Shown: one piece after another, positions 30,934 to 37,584 of the stretch
Numbering within the stretch: the stretch's first letter is position 1
How the letters are laid out: each line of letters opens with the position of its first letter
NCBI GenBank assembly: GCA_019638595.1
Contig: JAHBTJ010000002.1
Span: forward strand, 62,001 to 126,000
Length of the DNA stretch: 64,000 bases
Source: Chitinophagaceae bacterium
Lineage (GTDB): Bacteria > Bacteroidota > Bacteroidia > Chitinophagales > Chitinophagaceae
Direction of reading: 5' to 3'
The notes under the pieces: generated by a model
The model's database searches: none
What the model was told of the DNA's origin: nothing
Seen by the model: the letters and a program-made list of their open reading frames with translations, nothing else
Program-made: the position numbers and the translations under genes

Positions 30934-31006
30934 GGCTGTGGGCTGTGAGCTATCAGTCTATCGGCTGCCCATTGCTCAAAGCTCATAGCCCACAGCCCAC
31001 CCCCTT
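30934..31006 (+). terminator. Long stem-loop terminator after recR
   Basis: GGCTGTGGGCTGTGAGCT (30934-30951) pairs with AGCTCATAGCCCACAGCC (30980-30997) over 18 bp with a single G-U wobble. It is followed by CACCCCC and a T run. It starts 2 bp after the recR stop. Confidence 0.8.
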
Positions 31007-31027
31007 TTTTCTTTCCATTCCTTTCCC

Positions 31028-31035
31028 TACCTTTG
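31028..31035 (+). promoter_or_regulatory. -7 promoter element of metH (first gene)
   Basis: TACCTTTG fits TAnnTTTG in a region downstream of the recR terminator. It would give a leader of about 240 bases before the ATG at 31279. Confidence 0.5.
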
Positions 31036-31080
31036 CGGCGCAATACAGGCGGATTTGTTTATTGTTCGGCCTTTCAATAG

Positions 31081-31127
31081 AACTAATAAACGTACAAACT
31101 TCACAAAGTTCTCCGGCGTTTATAGTT
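31081..31127 (+). promoter_or_regulatory. Nested hairpin in the metH leader
   Basis: AACTAATAAACG (31081-31092) pairs with CGTTTATAGTT (31117-31127) with one bulged base. It encloses an inner hairpin, AACTT (31097-31101) with AAGTT (31106-31110). It lies in the long untranslated region ahead of methionine synthase, where an RNA regulator would make sense, but it matches no riboswitch class I can recognise. The rest of 31128-31278 shows no gene. Confidence 0.4.
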
Positions 31128-31278
31128 CAGGTATTTTTAGGTAGTCGGCTTCATATCGCTATTATGCATCCGTTGCGTCGCACGCTTGTGCTGCATCGCT
31201 CGGGGCAACTGATAGATGCTGGCAGGCGAATCGTAATAAATCCTACCTCATATTCTTAATTCTAATAAAGGGTTCTTT

Positions 31279-32283
31279 ATGGGCAGTATACGAGCAGCAT
31301 TACAAAAACGCATCCTGGTGATAGATGGCGCTATGGGCACTATGATACAGCGCTATAAATTAGGTGAAGCCGATTACCGGGGTGAGCGCTTTAAAGACTG
31401 GCACAGCGATGTAAAAGGCAATAACGACCTGCTGAGCATTACCCAACCACAAATTATTATTGATATACACAAGCAATATCTTGCTGCCGGCGCTGATATT
31501 ATTGAAACCAATACCTTCAGCAGCACCAGCATTGCCATGGCGGATTATGATATGCAGTCGCTGGCTTATGAATTGAATGTGGCGTCTGCTCAATGTGCCA
31601 GGGAGGCTATAAAACAAAGCGGTAAATCTGCCTGGGTAGCTGGCGCTATTGGTCCGTTAAATAAAACATTATCACTTTCACCTGATGTAAATAACCCCGG
31701 TTTCCGTGCCGTAACTTTTGATGAAGTGGTAGCGGCTTATTACGAACAGATACGCGGTCTTGTTGACGGCGGCGTAGATATCTTTTTAATAGAGACCATT
31801 TTTGATACGCTTAATGCCAAAGCGGCCATTTTCGCTATTAAAAAATTCTATCGCGAAAATCCGGGAGCTCCCCAAAAAGAGATCATGATCAGCGGCACCA
31901 TTACCGATGCATCTGGCAGAACGTTGAGCGGGCAAACGCTGGAAGCCTTTTATACTTCCGTTGCGCATGCCAGGCCATTAAGCGTTGGTTTAAATTGCGC
32001 ATTAGGCGCCAGTGAAATGCGCCCGCATATCGCGGAGCTGGCACATATTGCGTCCTGTTATGTATCGGCTTACCCCAATGCAGGCTTACCCAATGCCATG
32101 GGCGAATATGATGAAGAGCCACACCAAACCGCCCATTTTTTAGAAGACTGGGCTAAAGAAGGTTTTGTAAATATAGTAGGCGGCTGCTGCGGCACAACGC
32201 CTGATCATATAAAACATATAACGGATGCAGTAAAAGATATAAGACCGAGGGAATTGCCGGTGGTGGAGAAAGAGTTGATTTGA
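31279..32283 (+). CDS. metH: Methionine synthase, homocysteine-binding module (separate gene)
   Basis: The 334-residue product is the N-terminal homocysteine S-methyltransferase barrel of cobalamin-dependent methionine synthase. It contains [38 protein letters not shown] and [20 protein letters not shown]. Zinc-ligand cysteines are in [12 protein letters not shown] and in [13 protein letters not shown] at the C-terminus. Many Bacteroidota encode this module apart from the rest of MetH, so the split is normal. What is unusual is the ~920 bp, including a broken ORF6N gene and palindromes, separating it from the second part. Confidence 0.95.
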
Positions 32284-32321
32284 AAATGAGAGAATTTGAA
32301 AATTTGAAAATGGGAGAAGCC

Positions 32322-32420
32322 TGCCCGAATGATTCGTTCAGGCGGGGATGAGAGGATGAGGCACTATAGCATCACTCCTTTTTCCCTGCCCGTCCGGTCA
32401 GGCGGGCTTAGGAAAGGGAG
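32322..32420. repeat. Palindromic repeat debris between the metH genes
   Basis: CCTGCCCGAA at about 32322 is partly complementary to TTCGTTCAGGCGGG, and GCCCGTCC at about 32388 is partly complementary to GGCGGGC near 32401. These GC-rich hairpins stand out in AT-rich surroundings and look like dispersed palindromic elements. A TTTGAAAATTTGAAAATG repeat at about 32290 recurs near 39270. Confidence 0.45.
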
Positions 32421-32454
32421 AAAGAAGGATAGGCTTTAAAACAAAATAACATAT

Positions 32455-32998
32455 ATGAAAACATCAAAAACTATTGCTGTTACAGACAATGATATTGTGC
32501 AGAAAATTTATATAATTCGCGGTATTAAGCGGTATTAAAGTGATGCTGGATAAGGATTTGGCAGAAATGTATGGAGTTGAAACAAGAGTATTAAATCAGG
32601 CTGTTCAAAGGAATCTTACACGCTTTCCGTATGATTTTATGTTTCAGCTAACGGAAGATGAATTTAAAAACTTGATATCACAAAATGTGATATCAAGTTG
32701 GGGTGGCACCAGGAAAATGCCTTTTGCGTTTACCGAGCAGGGAGTTGCCATGCTTTCCTCGGTTCTACGGTCTGAAAGAGCGATACAGGTGAATATCCGC
32801 ATTGTAAGAGTATACACAATAATGCGGCAGTTGATATTAGACAATAAAGAACTCTGGCTAAAAATTGAAAAGATAGAACAGGCTTTAGCAAAGAAAGACG
32901 AAGAAGTACAGGCTATTTTTAAAGTATTGAAAAACCTGCTGGTAAAAGAAGAGAAACCGAGACAGCCAATCGGGTTTAAGGTTCCCGGTAAGAGATAG
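32455..32998 (+). pseudogene. ORF6N-domain DNA-binding protein, frame broken by a 10-bp duplication
   Basis: An ATG at 32455 opens a frame reading MKTSKTIAVTDNDIVQKIYI then IRGIK, the usual ORF6N start. GCGGTATTAA is then duplicated in tandem near 32519-32538, and the frame ends in TAA. The remainder is intact in another frame from 32540: VMLDKDLAEMYGVETRVLNQ, FMFQLTEDEFKNL, FAFTEQGVAMLSSVLRSERA, and a coiled-coil tail. ORF6N proteins are phage- and island-associated DNA-binding proteins. A start at the GTG at 32540 could still give a 152-residue product lacking the first strand. Confidence 0.75.
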
Positions 32999-33008
32999 CC
33001 TCTCCCGA

Positions 33009-33025
33009 CCTCTCCAAAGGAGAGG
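33009..33025. repeat. Palindrome CCTCTCC-AAA-GGAGAGG
   Basis: A perfect 7-bp-arm palindrome belonging to the same CYCTTTCC-AAA-GGAAAGRG-like family seen at 33154-33176 and inside metH at 35391-35448 and 35886-35904. Confidence 0.75.
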
Positions 33026-33153
33026 AGACCAGAGCACGAAAGGCCAGCTTTGCGGAGATGCTGATAAATTCAGTGAGTTGTTGAATATTGTAGAGTAGTA
33101 TTACAATAGTTGAGATGGAAGTTATAAAAGTTCATTAAAGGTATGCAGCACCG

Positions 33154-33176
33154 CTCTCTTTCCAAAGGAAAGAGAG
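33154..33176. repeat. Palindrome CTCTCTTTCC-AAA-GGAAAGAGAG just before metH
   Basis: A perfect 10-bp-arm palindrome in the leader of the large metH gene. If translation were taken from the upstream ATG at 33143 the palindrome would be read as [14 protein letters not shown], echoing the [12 protein letters not shown] segment inside the metH insert. Confidence 0.8.
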
Positions 33177-33205
33177 ATGGAGAGATAGGCTGCCAAACAA
33201 AAATT

Positions 33206-36200
33206 ATGTCTGAACCAATTATTATAAAACCATTTCTCCGTTTATCAGGGCTTGAACCATTGGTAGTTCGCCCCGAAACCAACTTTATTAATATAGGCGA
33301 GAGAACCAATGTAACCGGTTCTAAAAAATTTGCGCGACTTATAAAGGAGAACAAATACGAGGAAGCGTTGAGCGTTGCCCGCCAGCAGGTGGAAAATGGC
33401 GCACAGGTGCTGGATATCAATATGGATGACGCTTTACTGGATGGCGTAAAGGCAATGACCACCTTTATCAACCTCGTGCAAAGCGAACCTGATATTGCCA
33501 GAATACCTATCATGATTGACAGCTCCAAATTCGAGATCATTGAAGCGGGGCTGAAATGCGTACAGGGTAAATGTATCGTTAACTCCATCTCCATGAAAGA
33601 AGGAGAGGAAAAATTCATTCAACAGGCAATTATTTGCCAGAGTTATGGTGCAGCAGTAATTGTAATGGCCTTTGATGAACTAGGACAGGCCGACACTAAA
33701 GAACGTAAGATAAACATCTGCCATAGGGCATATAAAATATTAACGGAACAGGTAGGCTACGATCCGCAGGATATTATTTTCGACCCCAACATTTTTGCCA
33801 TAGCAACCGGGCTGGAAGAGCACAATAACTACGGTGTTGATTTTATTGAAGCCACGCAGGAAATAAAACGGCTGATGCCGTTAACCGGCATAAGCGGCGG
33901 CGTAAGTAATCTCTCCTTTTCTTTTCGCGGTAATGAGCCGGTGCGCGAGGCCATGCATGCCGTGTTTTTATACTATGCCATTAAAGCAGGCATGAACATG
34001 GGCATTGTTAATGCCGGTCAGTTGGTGGTATATGATGAAATTGAACCGGGACTTCGTACCTTATGCGAAGACGTTATATTGAACCGCAATAATGATAATA
34101 ATGAAGCCACTGAAAAACTGATTGCTTTTGCTGAAACGGTAAAGGCAAAAGGAAAGGTGGAAGTAAAAGACGAAGGCTGGCGCAAAGAAAGCGTGGAAGA
34201 AAGATTGAAACATTCTCTTGTTAATGGTATTACAGATTATATAGACACAGATACTGAAGAAGCGCGGCTTAAATATCCCAAACCTTTGGATGTAATTGAA
34301 GGCCCGCTGATGAACGGCATGAGTGTGGTAGGTGATCTGTTTGGTGCAGGCAAAATGTTTTTACCGCAGGTGGTAAAATCTGCAAGGGTGATGAAAAAAT
34401 CCGTGGCATGGCTTACCCCCTATATTGAAGAAGAAAAAAAGAATAATCCTGTAGCGCAGGATGGCAGCGCCCCTAAAATTTTACTCGCAACCGTAAAGGG
34501 CGATGTGCACGATATTGGAAAGAATATAGTGGGGGTTGTGCTGGGCTGTAATGGGTATGATATCATTGACCTGGGCGTAATGGTGCCTACGGATAAAATA
34601 TTGGATACTGCCGAAAAAGAAAATGCCGACATTATTGGCGTAAGCGGGTTGATCACGCCCTCGCTGGATGAAATGGTAAATGTAGCACATGAAATGAAAA
34701 GAAGGGGCATGAACAAGCCATTGCTGATTGGTGGCGCAACCACATCGCGTATGCACACGGCTGTAAAAATTGCCCCGCAATATGATAATGGTGTTGTACA
34801 TGTGCTCGATGCAAGCAGAAGTGTAACTGTTGCAGGCTCTTTGCTTAATGCCGATCAGAAAGAAGGATTTTTAGATAAGACGCGTTCCGAATACCAAAAG
34901 CTGAAACAGGATTTTGAAAATAAAAAGCCGGTTAAGCAATACCTTTCTTTTGCAGATGCGCAGGCTAATAAAACAGCAATTGATTGGGATAATTATACAC
35001 CGCCCGTACCCACTTTTACAGGAACGAGAGTTTTTAATGATTACAATTTAGCTGAGCTCCGTGATTATATAGACTGGAAGCCATTTTTTATTTCATGGGA
35101 GCTGCATGGCAACTTCCCGGCCATTCTTACTGATGAAAAAGTAGGTGTAGAAGCTACCAAACTATATAACGATGCCAATAAGCTGCTTGATATCATCATC
35201 AATGAAAAGTGGCTGACGGCACAGGGAGTTATCGGGTTTTGGTCTGCGAACAGCGATGGAAAAGATACAATTATTGTAAATAATAACGGTGAGACAATAT
35301 ATCTTGAATCACTGCGTCAACAAATAAAGAAAGCGCCGGGACAACCGAATCTGAGCTTGAGTGATTTTATAAAGCCATGCCCATCCCCGGCCCTTCCCTT
35401 TGGGAAGGGAGAAGAGAGCCTATCCCCAACCCTTTCCAAAGGAAAGGGAGATCAGCCCACAAAGGCCCAGGATACAGGCTTTGGTTATGAAACTGCCGAC
35501 CCAATACTATATAGACATCTTAAGGATTTTGCTGTTCAGCAAAAACAAAATCCTACAGAGGCGGAGAGGGTTTTGTGGCAGTTTTTAAGAGGGAAAAAAT
35601 TAGAGTCATATAAATTTCGCCGTCAGCATATCATTCTTCAATTTATTGCCGACTTTGTTTGCCTGCGTAAAAAACTGATCATAGAATTAGATGGCAGTAT
35701 ACACGACCTGCCTGAATCCAAAATCAGCGATCAGCAGCGAACTGAAATACTTAATGAAAAGGGATATACTGTTATCAGATTCAACAATGATGAAGTATTA
35801 CATAACACCGACAATGTACTCAATAAAATTACCGAAGCTCTTAACCACCTTCCCGAAGCCGGTAGTAGTAATGAAGATGCAGAAGCCCTCTCATTAGGAG
35901 AGGGTTTGGGAGAGGCTGCTATTGACCATCTTGGAGCTTTTTCCGTAACAATAAAGGGCATCGAACCACATCTCGAAAGATTTATAAAAGATCACGATGA
36001 TTATAACAAGATAATGTTACAGTCTTTATGCGATCGTTTGGCGGAAGCATTTGCCGAATGCTTGCATGAAAGAGTGCGCAAAGAATTTTGGGGCTATGTA
36101 AAAGAAGAGCATTTGTCCAACGAAGATCTTATCAAAGAAAAATACCAGGGCATACGCCCCGCCCCGGGTTATCCGGCCTGCCCCGATCATACGGAAAAAT

Positions 36201-36427
36201 ATAAGCTATTTGAATTATTAGGCGGTGAAGAAGTTACCGGTATCCACCTCACAGAATCTCTTGCCATGTATCCTGCTGCATCCATATGTGGCTGGTATTT
36301 CAGTCACCCGCAAAGCCAGTATTTTGGCGTGGGTAAAATTCAGCCTGACCAGTTTGAAGATTATTTTCAACGGAAGGGAATGGGTAGGGAAGAGCTGGAA
36401 AGATGGCTTAGACCGGTGACGGAGTGA
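33206..36427 (+). CDS. metH: Cobalamin-dependent methionine synthase, folate/B12/activation modules, with inserted DUF559 domain
   Basis: The ATG at 33206 ([19 protein letters not shown]) is preferred to 33143, whose extra residues are a read-through palindrome. Methionine synthase modules come in order. The pterin-binding barrel contains [20 protein letters not shown] and [17 protein letters not shown]. The B12 cap domain follows, then the Rossmann B12 domain with the lower-ligand motif in [20 protein letters not shown]. The activation domain contains [19 protein letters not shown] and, at the end, [17 protein letters not shown]. The activation domain is interrupted after LSLSDFIKP by ~181 foreign residues containing a DUF559 nuclease, then resumes [20 protein letters not shown]. 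Without the insert the protein has a normal length of about 890. The enzyme may still fold if the insert forms a loop domain. Confidence 0.93.
35391..35448. repeat. Two adjacent palindromes at the left end of the metH insert
   Basis: CCCTTCCC-TTT-GGGAAGGG (35391-35409) and CCCTTTCC-AAA-GGAAAGGG (35430-35448) are both perfect. They are translated as LPFGKGEE and LSKGKGD. Confidence 0.9.
35886..35904. repeat. Palindrome at the right end of the metH insert
   Basis: CCCTCTC-ATTAG-GAGAGGG, perfect 7-bp arms, translated as ALSLGEG. MetH homology resumes 17 bp later. Confidence 0.85.
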
Positions 36428-36443
36428 TAGAGGAAATTGTTAT

Positions 36444-36530
36444 GGAGACTTTAGTCTCCGGAGAACATAGGCTGTACGAAGTCGGAGACTTCGTACAGCA
36501 ATAGTTCCGAACCTTTCAAAGGTTCGGAAC
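36444..36530. repeat. Array of three perfect hairpins downstream of metH
   Basis: GGAGAC/GTCTCC (36444-36459), GCTGTACGAAGTC/GACTTCGTACAGC (36471-36499, 13-bp arms) and GTTCCGAACCTTT/AAAGGTTCGGAAC (36504-36530, 13-bp arms, one-base loop) stand in a row with no T-run. They resemble dispersed palindromic elements more than terminators, although they may also stop or stabilise the metH transcript. Confidence 0.8.
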
Positions 36531-36601
36531 CCTGCATTTAATCTCGTGAAAATTTTGCTTAAGTTTGAATACACAATGGATTTGCTATAACCGCTTTCCT
36601 A

Positions 36602-37252
36602 ATGCGTATTTCCATACAGGCTGACCATAGAGAAACCCCTTCCGGCATTCCGGAACTTATTGCTGCAAATACCGGCGTGTCATTGCTTATATCTTCTTTA
36701 CCTGCCGGAGATTATATTATCAACGGAACCATTGGCGTAGAACGTAAATCCGCGGAAGACTTTGTGCAGAGTATCATCATCAATCGCCTGTTCGGTCAGG
36801 TAGCAAAGCTAAAACGATCCGTGCTGCGCCCTTTATTGGTCGTGGAAGATAACCCTTACACTACTTCTCATAAAATTCAGAACTGCGTCGTTCGCGGTGC
36901 TGTATTATCAGTGCTGGTTTCGTGGCAGGTGCCTGTAATGTTTTCAAAAAACAAAGAATACACTGTGGCTTTACTGCTGATGGCTGCCAGGCAAAGTCTT
37001 GCTGATTTGTCGCAACTTGCCGCTCCACAAAATTATCGCCCCAAAAGGCTGGTAAGGCAGCAATTGTTTCTTTTGCAGGGCATACCTACCGTTGGGCCTG
37101 CAATAGCCGCCCGGCTGCTGCAAAAATTAGGCAGCATCAAAGCCGTTGTTAACGCCACGGAAGAAGAGCTAAAACAGGTAGAAGGTATAGGCGGTAATAA
37201 AGCGAAGAAGATATCCGGGTTTATCAACGCACTATTTTCAGGAGAGCGTTAA
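36602..37252 (+). CDS. ERCC4/XPF-type nuclease with helix-hairpin-helix
   Basis: The 216-residue product has an N-terminal ERCC4 nuclease domain with the full signature: LPAGDYIINGTIGVERKSAE then DFVQSIIINRLFGQ (V-E-R-K-x3-D). A C-terminal tandem helix-hairpin-helix follows (LLQGIPTVGPAIAARLLQKL, VEGIGGNKAKKISGF). This is the nuclease-plus-(HhH)2 core of XPF/Hef, without a helicase. Such proteins cut branched or flap DNA. They are typical of archaea and eukaryotes but occur in some bacteria. It stands alone between a hairpin array and a long palindrome. Confidence 0.9.
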   Translation: MRISIQADHRETPSGIPELIAANTGVSLLISSLPAGDYIINGTIGVERKSAEDFVQSIIINRLFGQVAKLKRSVLRPLLVVEDNPYTTSHKIQNCVVRGAVLSVLVSWQVPVMFSKNKEYTVALLLMAARQSLADLSQLAAPQNYRPKRLVRQQLFLLQGIPTVGPAIAARLLQKLGSIKAVVNATEEELKQVEGIGGNKAKKISGFINALFSGER

Positions 37253-37354
37253 AATTTATTCATAAGGATTATTTGATGGCTGCCGGTACATATCAAACAA
37301 TAAAAGAAAGTGGATGTGGCTTTCGGTTAGAAAAGCTATTTAACCCGGCTTGTT

Positions 37355-37386
37355 TTTTAAACCCCTCGAATTCGAGGGGTTTAAAA
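37355..37386. terminator. 32-bp perfect palindrome, probable bidirectional terminator
   Basis: TTTTAAACCCCTCGAA (37355-37370) is followed directly by its exact complement (37371-37386), with T-rich flanks on the left. It lies within the 332-bp gap between the ERCC4 gene and uxaA. A loopless palindrome can fold as a stem with a four-base tip. Otherwise 37253-37584 shows nothing. Confidence 0.65.
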
Positions 37387-37584
37387 TTTGGGTTGTGAAA
37401 CTGTTGTTTATTTTTAATAAAATGTGATTTGACAGCATCAATTGTAGATGACTGAAAGCCGGCAGAGACAGACAATGTAAAAATATACCGCCCAAATTCA
37501 ATTTTTATTATCCCCTCCCATTTCAATAATTTCGCTGTCTGTTTTAGAACAAAACCCCGGAATATTCCACTAATTATTTGAACG

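Follow-up and report, generated by a model that had tools for sequence, protein, structure and literature searches.

In-frame DUF559 nuclease inserts with inverted palindromic ends in methionine synthase and other Bacteroidota enzymes: a probable homing element retained in the host protein

The DNA analysed here (the window) is a 64,000-nt stretch of the Chitinophagaceae bacterium genome GCA_019638595.1 (contig JAHBTJ010000002.1, positions 62,001-126,000, forward strand). In it, the gene for the C-terminal half of cobalamin-dependent methionine synthase (MetH) is interrupted in frame by a DUF559 nuclease domain lying between inverted, GC-rich hairpins, and the same insert architecture is found in at least 12 unrelated host proteins. 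We consider this to be probably a palindrome-ended homing element that is permanently retained in the host protein. The evidence, computational throughout, consists of the architecture and its recurrence, the inverted hairpin ends, the constraint on the nuclease, its homing-endonuclease fold and the sporadic occupancy of its sites. The features of the locus, in window coordinates, are the following:

31279-32283, + strand: partner gene, N-terminal half of MetH (homocysteine S-methyltransferase), from open reading frame (ORF) and Pfam
33143-36427, + strand: host gene, C-terminal half of MetH (pterin-binding, B12-binding and activation domains), from ORF and Pfam
35378-35923, + strand: whole in-frame insert in metH, 182 codons, from alignment with empty (insert-free) MetH of congeners and other genera; frame open throughout
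35380-35409, + strand: left end, C-rich tail plus hairpin (35391-35409), from palindrome and hairpin scans
35419-35448, + strand: second, tandem left end, tail plus hairpin (35430-35448), from palindrome scans
35519-35842, + strand: DUF559 nuclease domain, aa 793-900 of the ORF, from Pfam, alignment and fold match to I-Bth0305I and Vsr
35886-35917, + strand: right end, hairpin (35886-35904) plus G-rich tail, inverted relative to the left end, from palindrome and hairpin scans

In this genome metH is divided between two genes that encode separate N- and C-terminal halves. The C-half ORF comprises 1094 aa in a single frame with zero internal stops, and Pfam shows Met_synt_B12 split by DUF559 into two stretches, i.e. 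the activation domain is interrupted. A first-pass annotation of the sequence had described a stop-free insert of about 181 codons in this domain; this was borne out, the exact insert being 182 codons within one open ORF. The alignment with related MetH that it had proposed placed the insert at a short, six-residue turn of the empty homologues (LTTGKQ or QTTGIQ in the two congeners read). By codon count, host sequence is last clearly recognisable on the left at P (35375-35377) and restarts at D (35924-35926). Two genomes of the same genus, G239 and G028, have an empty MetH with the ordinary turn kept.

The insert has no start codon of its own and is open from end to end. Its DUF559 (PF04480) match has an E of 1.1e-35 (122.3 bits against a gathering cut-off of 20.6) and its fold is Vsr-like/EDxHD, with a structural match to I-Bth0305I and Vsr across most of the domain, in agreement with the full DUF559/Vsr-like domain that the annotation had read in it. 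The conserved acidic, catalytic-type residues are present (D in FIADF; E and D in IIELDG) in an alignment of 31 sequences. Furthermore, the ratio of nonsynonymous to synonymous substitution rates (dN/dS) is low in close filled pairs, showing that the nuclease is under purifying selection. Such conservation would also suit a domain that serves its host, e.g. a guard nuclease for defence inside essential enzymes, as would weak PADLOC matches, the best of them (0.0019) being to a model for homing endonucleases. We regard a host-serving role as improbable, given that the sporadic occupancy, inverted palindromic ends, palindrome-only remnants and unrelated hosts described below fit selfish DNA better.

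An in-frame nuclease in a housekeeping gene is also the classic layout of an intein, and the insert might be an intein, an intron or a bypassed segment that is removed from the product. This is very improbable. Pfam shows no intein/Hint domain in the ORF and Rfam no group I or II intron up to E 1 (31000-37500), upholding the annotation's view that the insert is neither intein nor intron by sequence. In addition, the frame is kept through the linkers as well as the domain, which would be needless for an intron, and the linkers are themselves translated palindromes.

The insert had further been described as bordered by palindromes. Hairpins are indeed found at both ends, and the left end holds two of them in tandem rather than one. 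The window contains 5 matches to the palindrome pattern at up to 3 mismatches, compared with 0.45 on average, and never more than 2, across 100 shuffles. Among the in-gene inserts of the family (see below), the best hairpin within 150 nt scores at least 7 in 68/86 cases on the left and 65/86 on the right, compared with 28/430 and 37/430 dinucleotide shuffles, respectively, which do not preserve codons; one insert per side was dropped as its flank was too short. Typical insert ends are inverted repeats (C-rich tail then hairpin on the left, hairpin then G-rich tail on the right) that are translated as SPNPSPKERG and LSFGEGRGEA-like linkers, and the left and right ends within one element match each other.

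Other features flank the host gene. An ORF with an ORF6N domain (32540-32998) lies between both metH genes, and a palindrome in the style of the insert ends (33000-33033) directly follows its stop; in the congener locus L198, a decayed ORF6N-like stretch is also found upstream of metH. Just 3′ of metH, at 36471-36530, there are two perfect 13-nt inverted repeats that resemble a terminator.

Of the family's 294 genomes, 156 contain DUF559. The MetH activation domain is present in 284 of these 294 and is split by an insert-sized profile gap in 11 (G000, G123, G012, G040, G074, G126, G129, G130, G227, G243 and G249); nine of the split MetH were read directly, and G129 and G249 are assigned by the split score alone. 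The first-pass annotation had allowed that most relatives might carry the region at the same place; with 11/284 split, the insert is neither ancestral nor general in MetH of relatives. Its suggested search for other in-frame DUF559 inserts yielded the 12 or more unrelated hosts, with hairpins at both ends above the level of shuffles. Among the matches listed, we examined the long-open-frame DUF559 loci and eight free-standing ones. All 95 long-frame DUF559 ORFs hold a host protein: LeuRS and MetRS (40), IcmF-like mutase (10), the MetH C-half (9), start-fused ArgB (8), AroC (7), CinA (5), and the MetH N-half, adenine deaminase and an Lhr-like helicase (3 each). There are single in-gene cases in HsdR, an M23 peptidase, acetyl-CoA synthetase and IspG, and single start-fused cases with a homoserine-kinase-like protein, PriA and a nucleotidyltransferase. 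Pfam confirmed ten representatives of these hosts; HsdR, AroC, ArgB, the nucleotidyltransferase and the synthetases were named by reading, and PDB matches back MetRS, LeuRS and AroC. Excluding 11 start-fused copies, which have hairpins at just 2/11 per side, the matches listed contain 87 in-gene DUF559 domains from 70 genomes.

Beyond the family, DUF559 is found in 222 of 395 genomes of a phylum sample. Of the ten phylum loci read, seven lie in frame within larger proteins and the other three are free-standing genes (apart from LeuRS, hosts were named by eye). The isolate Mucilaginibacter sp. OK268 has a DUF559 insert in a DEXH helicase (also named by eye). A scan of a set of genome contigs gave three loci only. 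The statement that DUF559 genes are normally free-standing thus does not hold in this family, in-frame inserts being common in both family and phylum. Many of the source genomes are drafts or metagenome-assembled, as an assembly artefact or pseudogene would have it; the chance of this is negligible, with inserts present in single-contig genomes (e.g. G141) and in the Mucilaginibacter isolate, zero stops and low dN/dS. Relatives of DUF559 were found in 40 plasmid and 3 phage records, every one below 60% identity, and in the two plasmid loci examined the DUF559 genes are separate, not inserted.

A few loci show further arrangements. Two DUF559 inserts occupy two sites of one LeuRS in L041, L046 and L043. 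The HsdR of G052 (L037) carries, besides DUF559, an apparent in-frame GIY-YIG nuclease at another position; no palindromes were seen in the flanks examined around the GIY-YIG insert in HsdR. On the Sphingomonas parapaucimobilis plasmid NZ_CP155753.1 (L321), a free-standing DUF559 gene lies between sufB and sufC.

Mapped onto solved structures, the breaks in the host proteins lie at turns or loops, namely at residues 154-159 of 1msk (MetH activation fragment), 242-244 of 1rqg (MetRS) and 237-243 of 1h3n (LeuRS) and, in AroC, after residue 146 of 7rca. In LeuRS without inserts, site A is a short turn and site B a variable loop; in MetRS, empty alleles show a turn of roughly five residues that is missing from filled ones. 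AlphaFold predicts the host and nuclease domains well and gives low confidence to both linkers. For AroC, six empty genomes have a single match each, and five others show just the two halves of the filled gene; for MetRS, too, a single gene exceeds the cut-off. Judging from this single-copy state and the low host dN/dS, the filled enzymes would be expected still to work.

Sporadic occupancy of one site among related alleles, as in homing elements, is seen for MetH, LeuRS and MetRS. The MetRS host tree contains two pairs of near-identical sisters, G167/G219 and G037/G128, each with one filled and one empty allele. On the MetH host tree, grouping G000 with SJ21 is rejected (p 0.0019, approximately unbiased (AU) test); since the anchor pattern missed L062 and L061, which leaves both out of tree and test, the AU test covers two filled rows. 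An old domain, vertically inherited and lost many times, would account for the finding that host and nuclease diverge together in close same-site pairs, and for the clustering of host-site labels on the nuclease tree (33 changes versus a shuffled mean of 73.4; 106 domains, few columns and many weak forks). Nevertheless, we give vertical descent only a small chance: MetH is split in just 11/284 and LeuRS carries the nuclease in at least 15/107, filled and empty states alternate between sister species, and empty alleles show the ordinary turn with no scar. Most large host sites need several origins on the nuclease tree, where the HsdR and IspG inserts group with free-standing DUF559, the free-standing genes being mostly a separate clade (branch support 96). 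Since single sites are hit repeatedly in different genera, the pattern is more like homing than free transposition.

Host codons up to 12 from the site are more divergent than the remainder in 2/7 MetRS and 4/5 MetH filled/empty comparisons (p < 0.05 uncorrected; comparisons not independent) and in 0/7 same-state controls, which hints at, but does not prove, gene conversion that took in short tracts of flanking sequence. In G128 MetRS, all four right-side differences from its sister within 30 codons equal the filled allele of another genus (L072), as does one of three differences on the left side; no clear donor was found for G219 MetRS.

Decay products of such inserts were also encountered. 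At LeuRS site A of the genome studied here, there is a peptide in which the outer halves of the congeners' left and right ends are joined, as would result if the stretch between the direct repeats in the two 5′ hairpin arms were deleted; it is called a scar because it matches both ends of the congeners' inserts. A strict hairpin scan of nuclease-less LeuRS gave 0/51 at site A, this scar included as its arms are imperfect, and 4/55 with hairpins at site B. The same LeuRS (L204) has a second palindrome-like peptide, TLAAPTSLERAEDEP, near its C-terminus, where L236 has a clear hairpin. One further feature of this genome is as follows:

G000:C9:142577-142714: partial DUF559 remnant fused to the start of argB (L002)

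Complete start-fused DUF559 copies precede argB at eight other loci.

Palindromes without a nuclease occur both between genes and in frame, single or paired in other proteins at L225, L235, L236 and L237 (18 loci examined). They raise the alternative of a family like the repetitive extragenic palindromes (REPs), mobilised by a different enzyme, e.g. a Y1 REP-associated transposase (RAYT), with DUF559 as a passenger trapped between two palindromes. Y1_Tnp genes in 14/16 genomes tested, and a nuclease that does not correlate with the end sequences across sites, are in keeping with it. This is nonetheless unlikely, as G141 and G052 have in-gene DUF559 inserts and palindromes and no Y1_Tnp match, an element's own left and right ends match, and purifying selection on the nuclease is not expected for a passenger.

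For a homing element, we propose the following course. The unit would consist of inverted GC-rich hairpin ends, each an outer C/G-rich tail plus hairpin, flanking a start-less DUF559 nuclease in one open frame. It would occupy a surface turn or loop of a housekeeping enzyme, displacing a few turn residues, and be translated together with the host gene, its ends becoming disordered linkers, such that the enzyme keeps working while the nuclease gets made. The nuclease would then cut an empty allele at the cognate site, and repair off the filled allele would copy the insert and a little flanking DNA (homing). Occasionally a copy may land in a new loop, and copies would decay via deletion into palindrome-only scars. 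The choice of sites, the tolerance of the host enzymes and the role of the palindromes are likewise conjectural parts of this scheme.

Several observations weigh against it. Cutting and transfer by the nuclease are what we propose from sequence, and the insert has no extra DNA-binding module of the kind in phage homing enzymes. Co-evolution of nuclease and palindromes across host sites was tested once and not found: nuclease distance and end similarity are uncorrelated (r -0.035; 298/1000 permutations as low; 75/87 elements, 12 having been dropped for a hairpin score below 6 on a side, with a noisy automatic hairpin choice), so that the partnership of nuclease and palindromes is not demonstrated. 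On the nuclease tree, inserts from LeuRS site B, the MetH N-half and adenine deaminase do not group according to host site. The co-conversion signal is missing in 5/7 MetRS and 1/5 MetH comparisons, which share sequences. Inspection by eye of filled/empty MetRS, AroC and MetH pairs from the same genus revealed no target-site duplication (for AroC, anchors failed at three empty loci and the loop is too variable). The host sequence is better conserved than the nuclease in most of the close pairs listed, a pattern to be expected if the inserts had long been inherited vertically and had not spread very recently. Finally, the genome also encodes MetE, which weakens the argument that its filled MetH works.

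Taken together, the 12 or more hosts, hairpin ends, turn or loop sites and sporadic occupancy support what the first-pass annotation had suggested, i.e. a nuclease-carrying palindromic element that enters tolerant loops with a logic like that of Rickettsia palindromic elements (RPEs). It would seem to be a hitherto unrecognised type of selfish gene, one with no need to be spliced out. More tentatively, it may represent a class of mobile element in its own right: a unit with inverted palindromes whose Vsr-like nuclease is produced solely as part of host enzymes. Such a unit would home into the same surface turns of essential genes across Bacteroidota, need no splicing since tolerant turns are chosen, and decay to palindrome-coded peptides left as new host loops.

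Homing elements are generally held to depend on an intron, an intein or an intergenic location in order to spare the host. The EDxHD homing endonuclease I-Bth0305I is encoded within a self-splicing intron and has a long DNA-binding region, whereas the inserts described here have linkers only and no intron. They resemble homing-endonuclease inteins in being in frame, sporadic and single-site in housekeeping hosts, but have no splicing domain and are retained, relying on tolerant turns instead of excision. REP/RAYT systems share the hairpin-plus-tail units inverted around a gene; here, however, the nuclease is PD-(D/E)XK/Vsr-like and not Y1, the units are in-gene and in frame, and G141 and G052 carry them without a Y1_Tnp match. 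Free-standing DUF559 genes belong to the same Pfam family but have their own start codon and mostly form a separate clade. EDxHD enzymes are treated in PMC3943268, a DUF559 gene is already placed in the EDxHD homing family (PMC9403480), and RPEs are described as palindromic units in frame in unrelated protein genes, apparently retained in the protein (PMC10969869, PMC3733652). The layout here is alike, with in-frame palindromic inserts in unrelated protein genes, but RPEs are about 150 bp without a nuclease, whereas the full unit here includes a conserved nuclease, and one and the same site can be hit in several genera. Searches of open-licence PMC papers yielded no description of in-frame DUF559 elements; subscription papers could hold one. 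As far as searched, in-frame palindromic elements and homing nucleases are each known, and their splicing-free union is new.

In the present case, nuclease inserts are permanent residents of single-copy enzymes, among them chorismate synthase and two aminoacyl-tRNA synthetases, which presumably still work. If our reading is correct, many ‘DUF559 fusion’ annotations would be insertions, not functional fusions, Rickettsia-type in-frame palindromes would gain a possible autonomous form, and there would be a testable route by which proteins acquire new loops, as well as natural domain-insertion sites for engineering and new site-specific nucleases.
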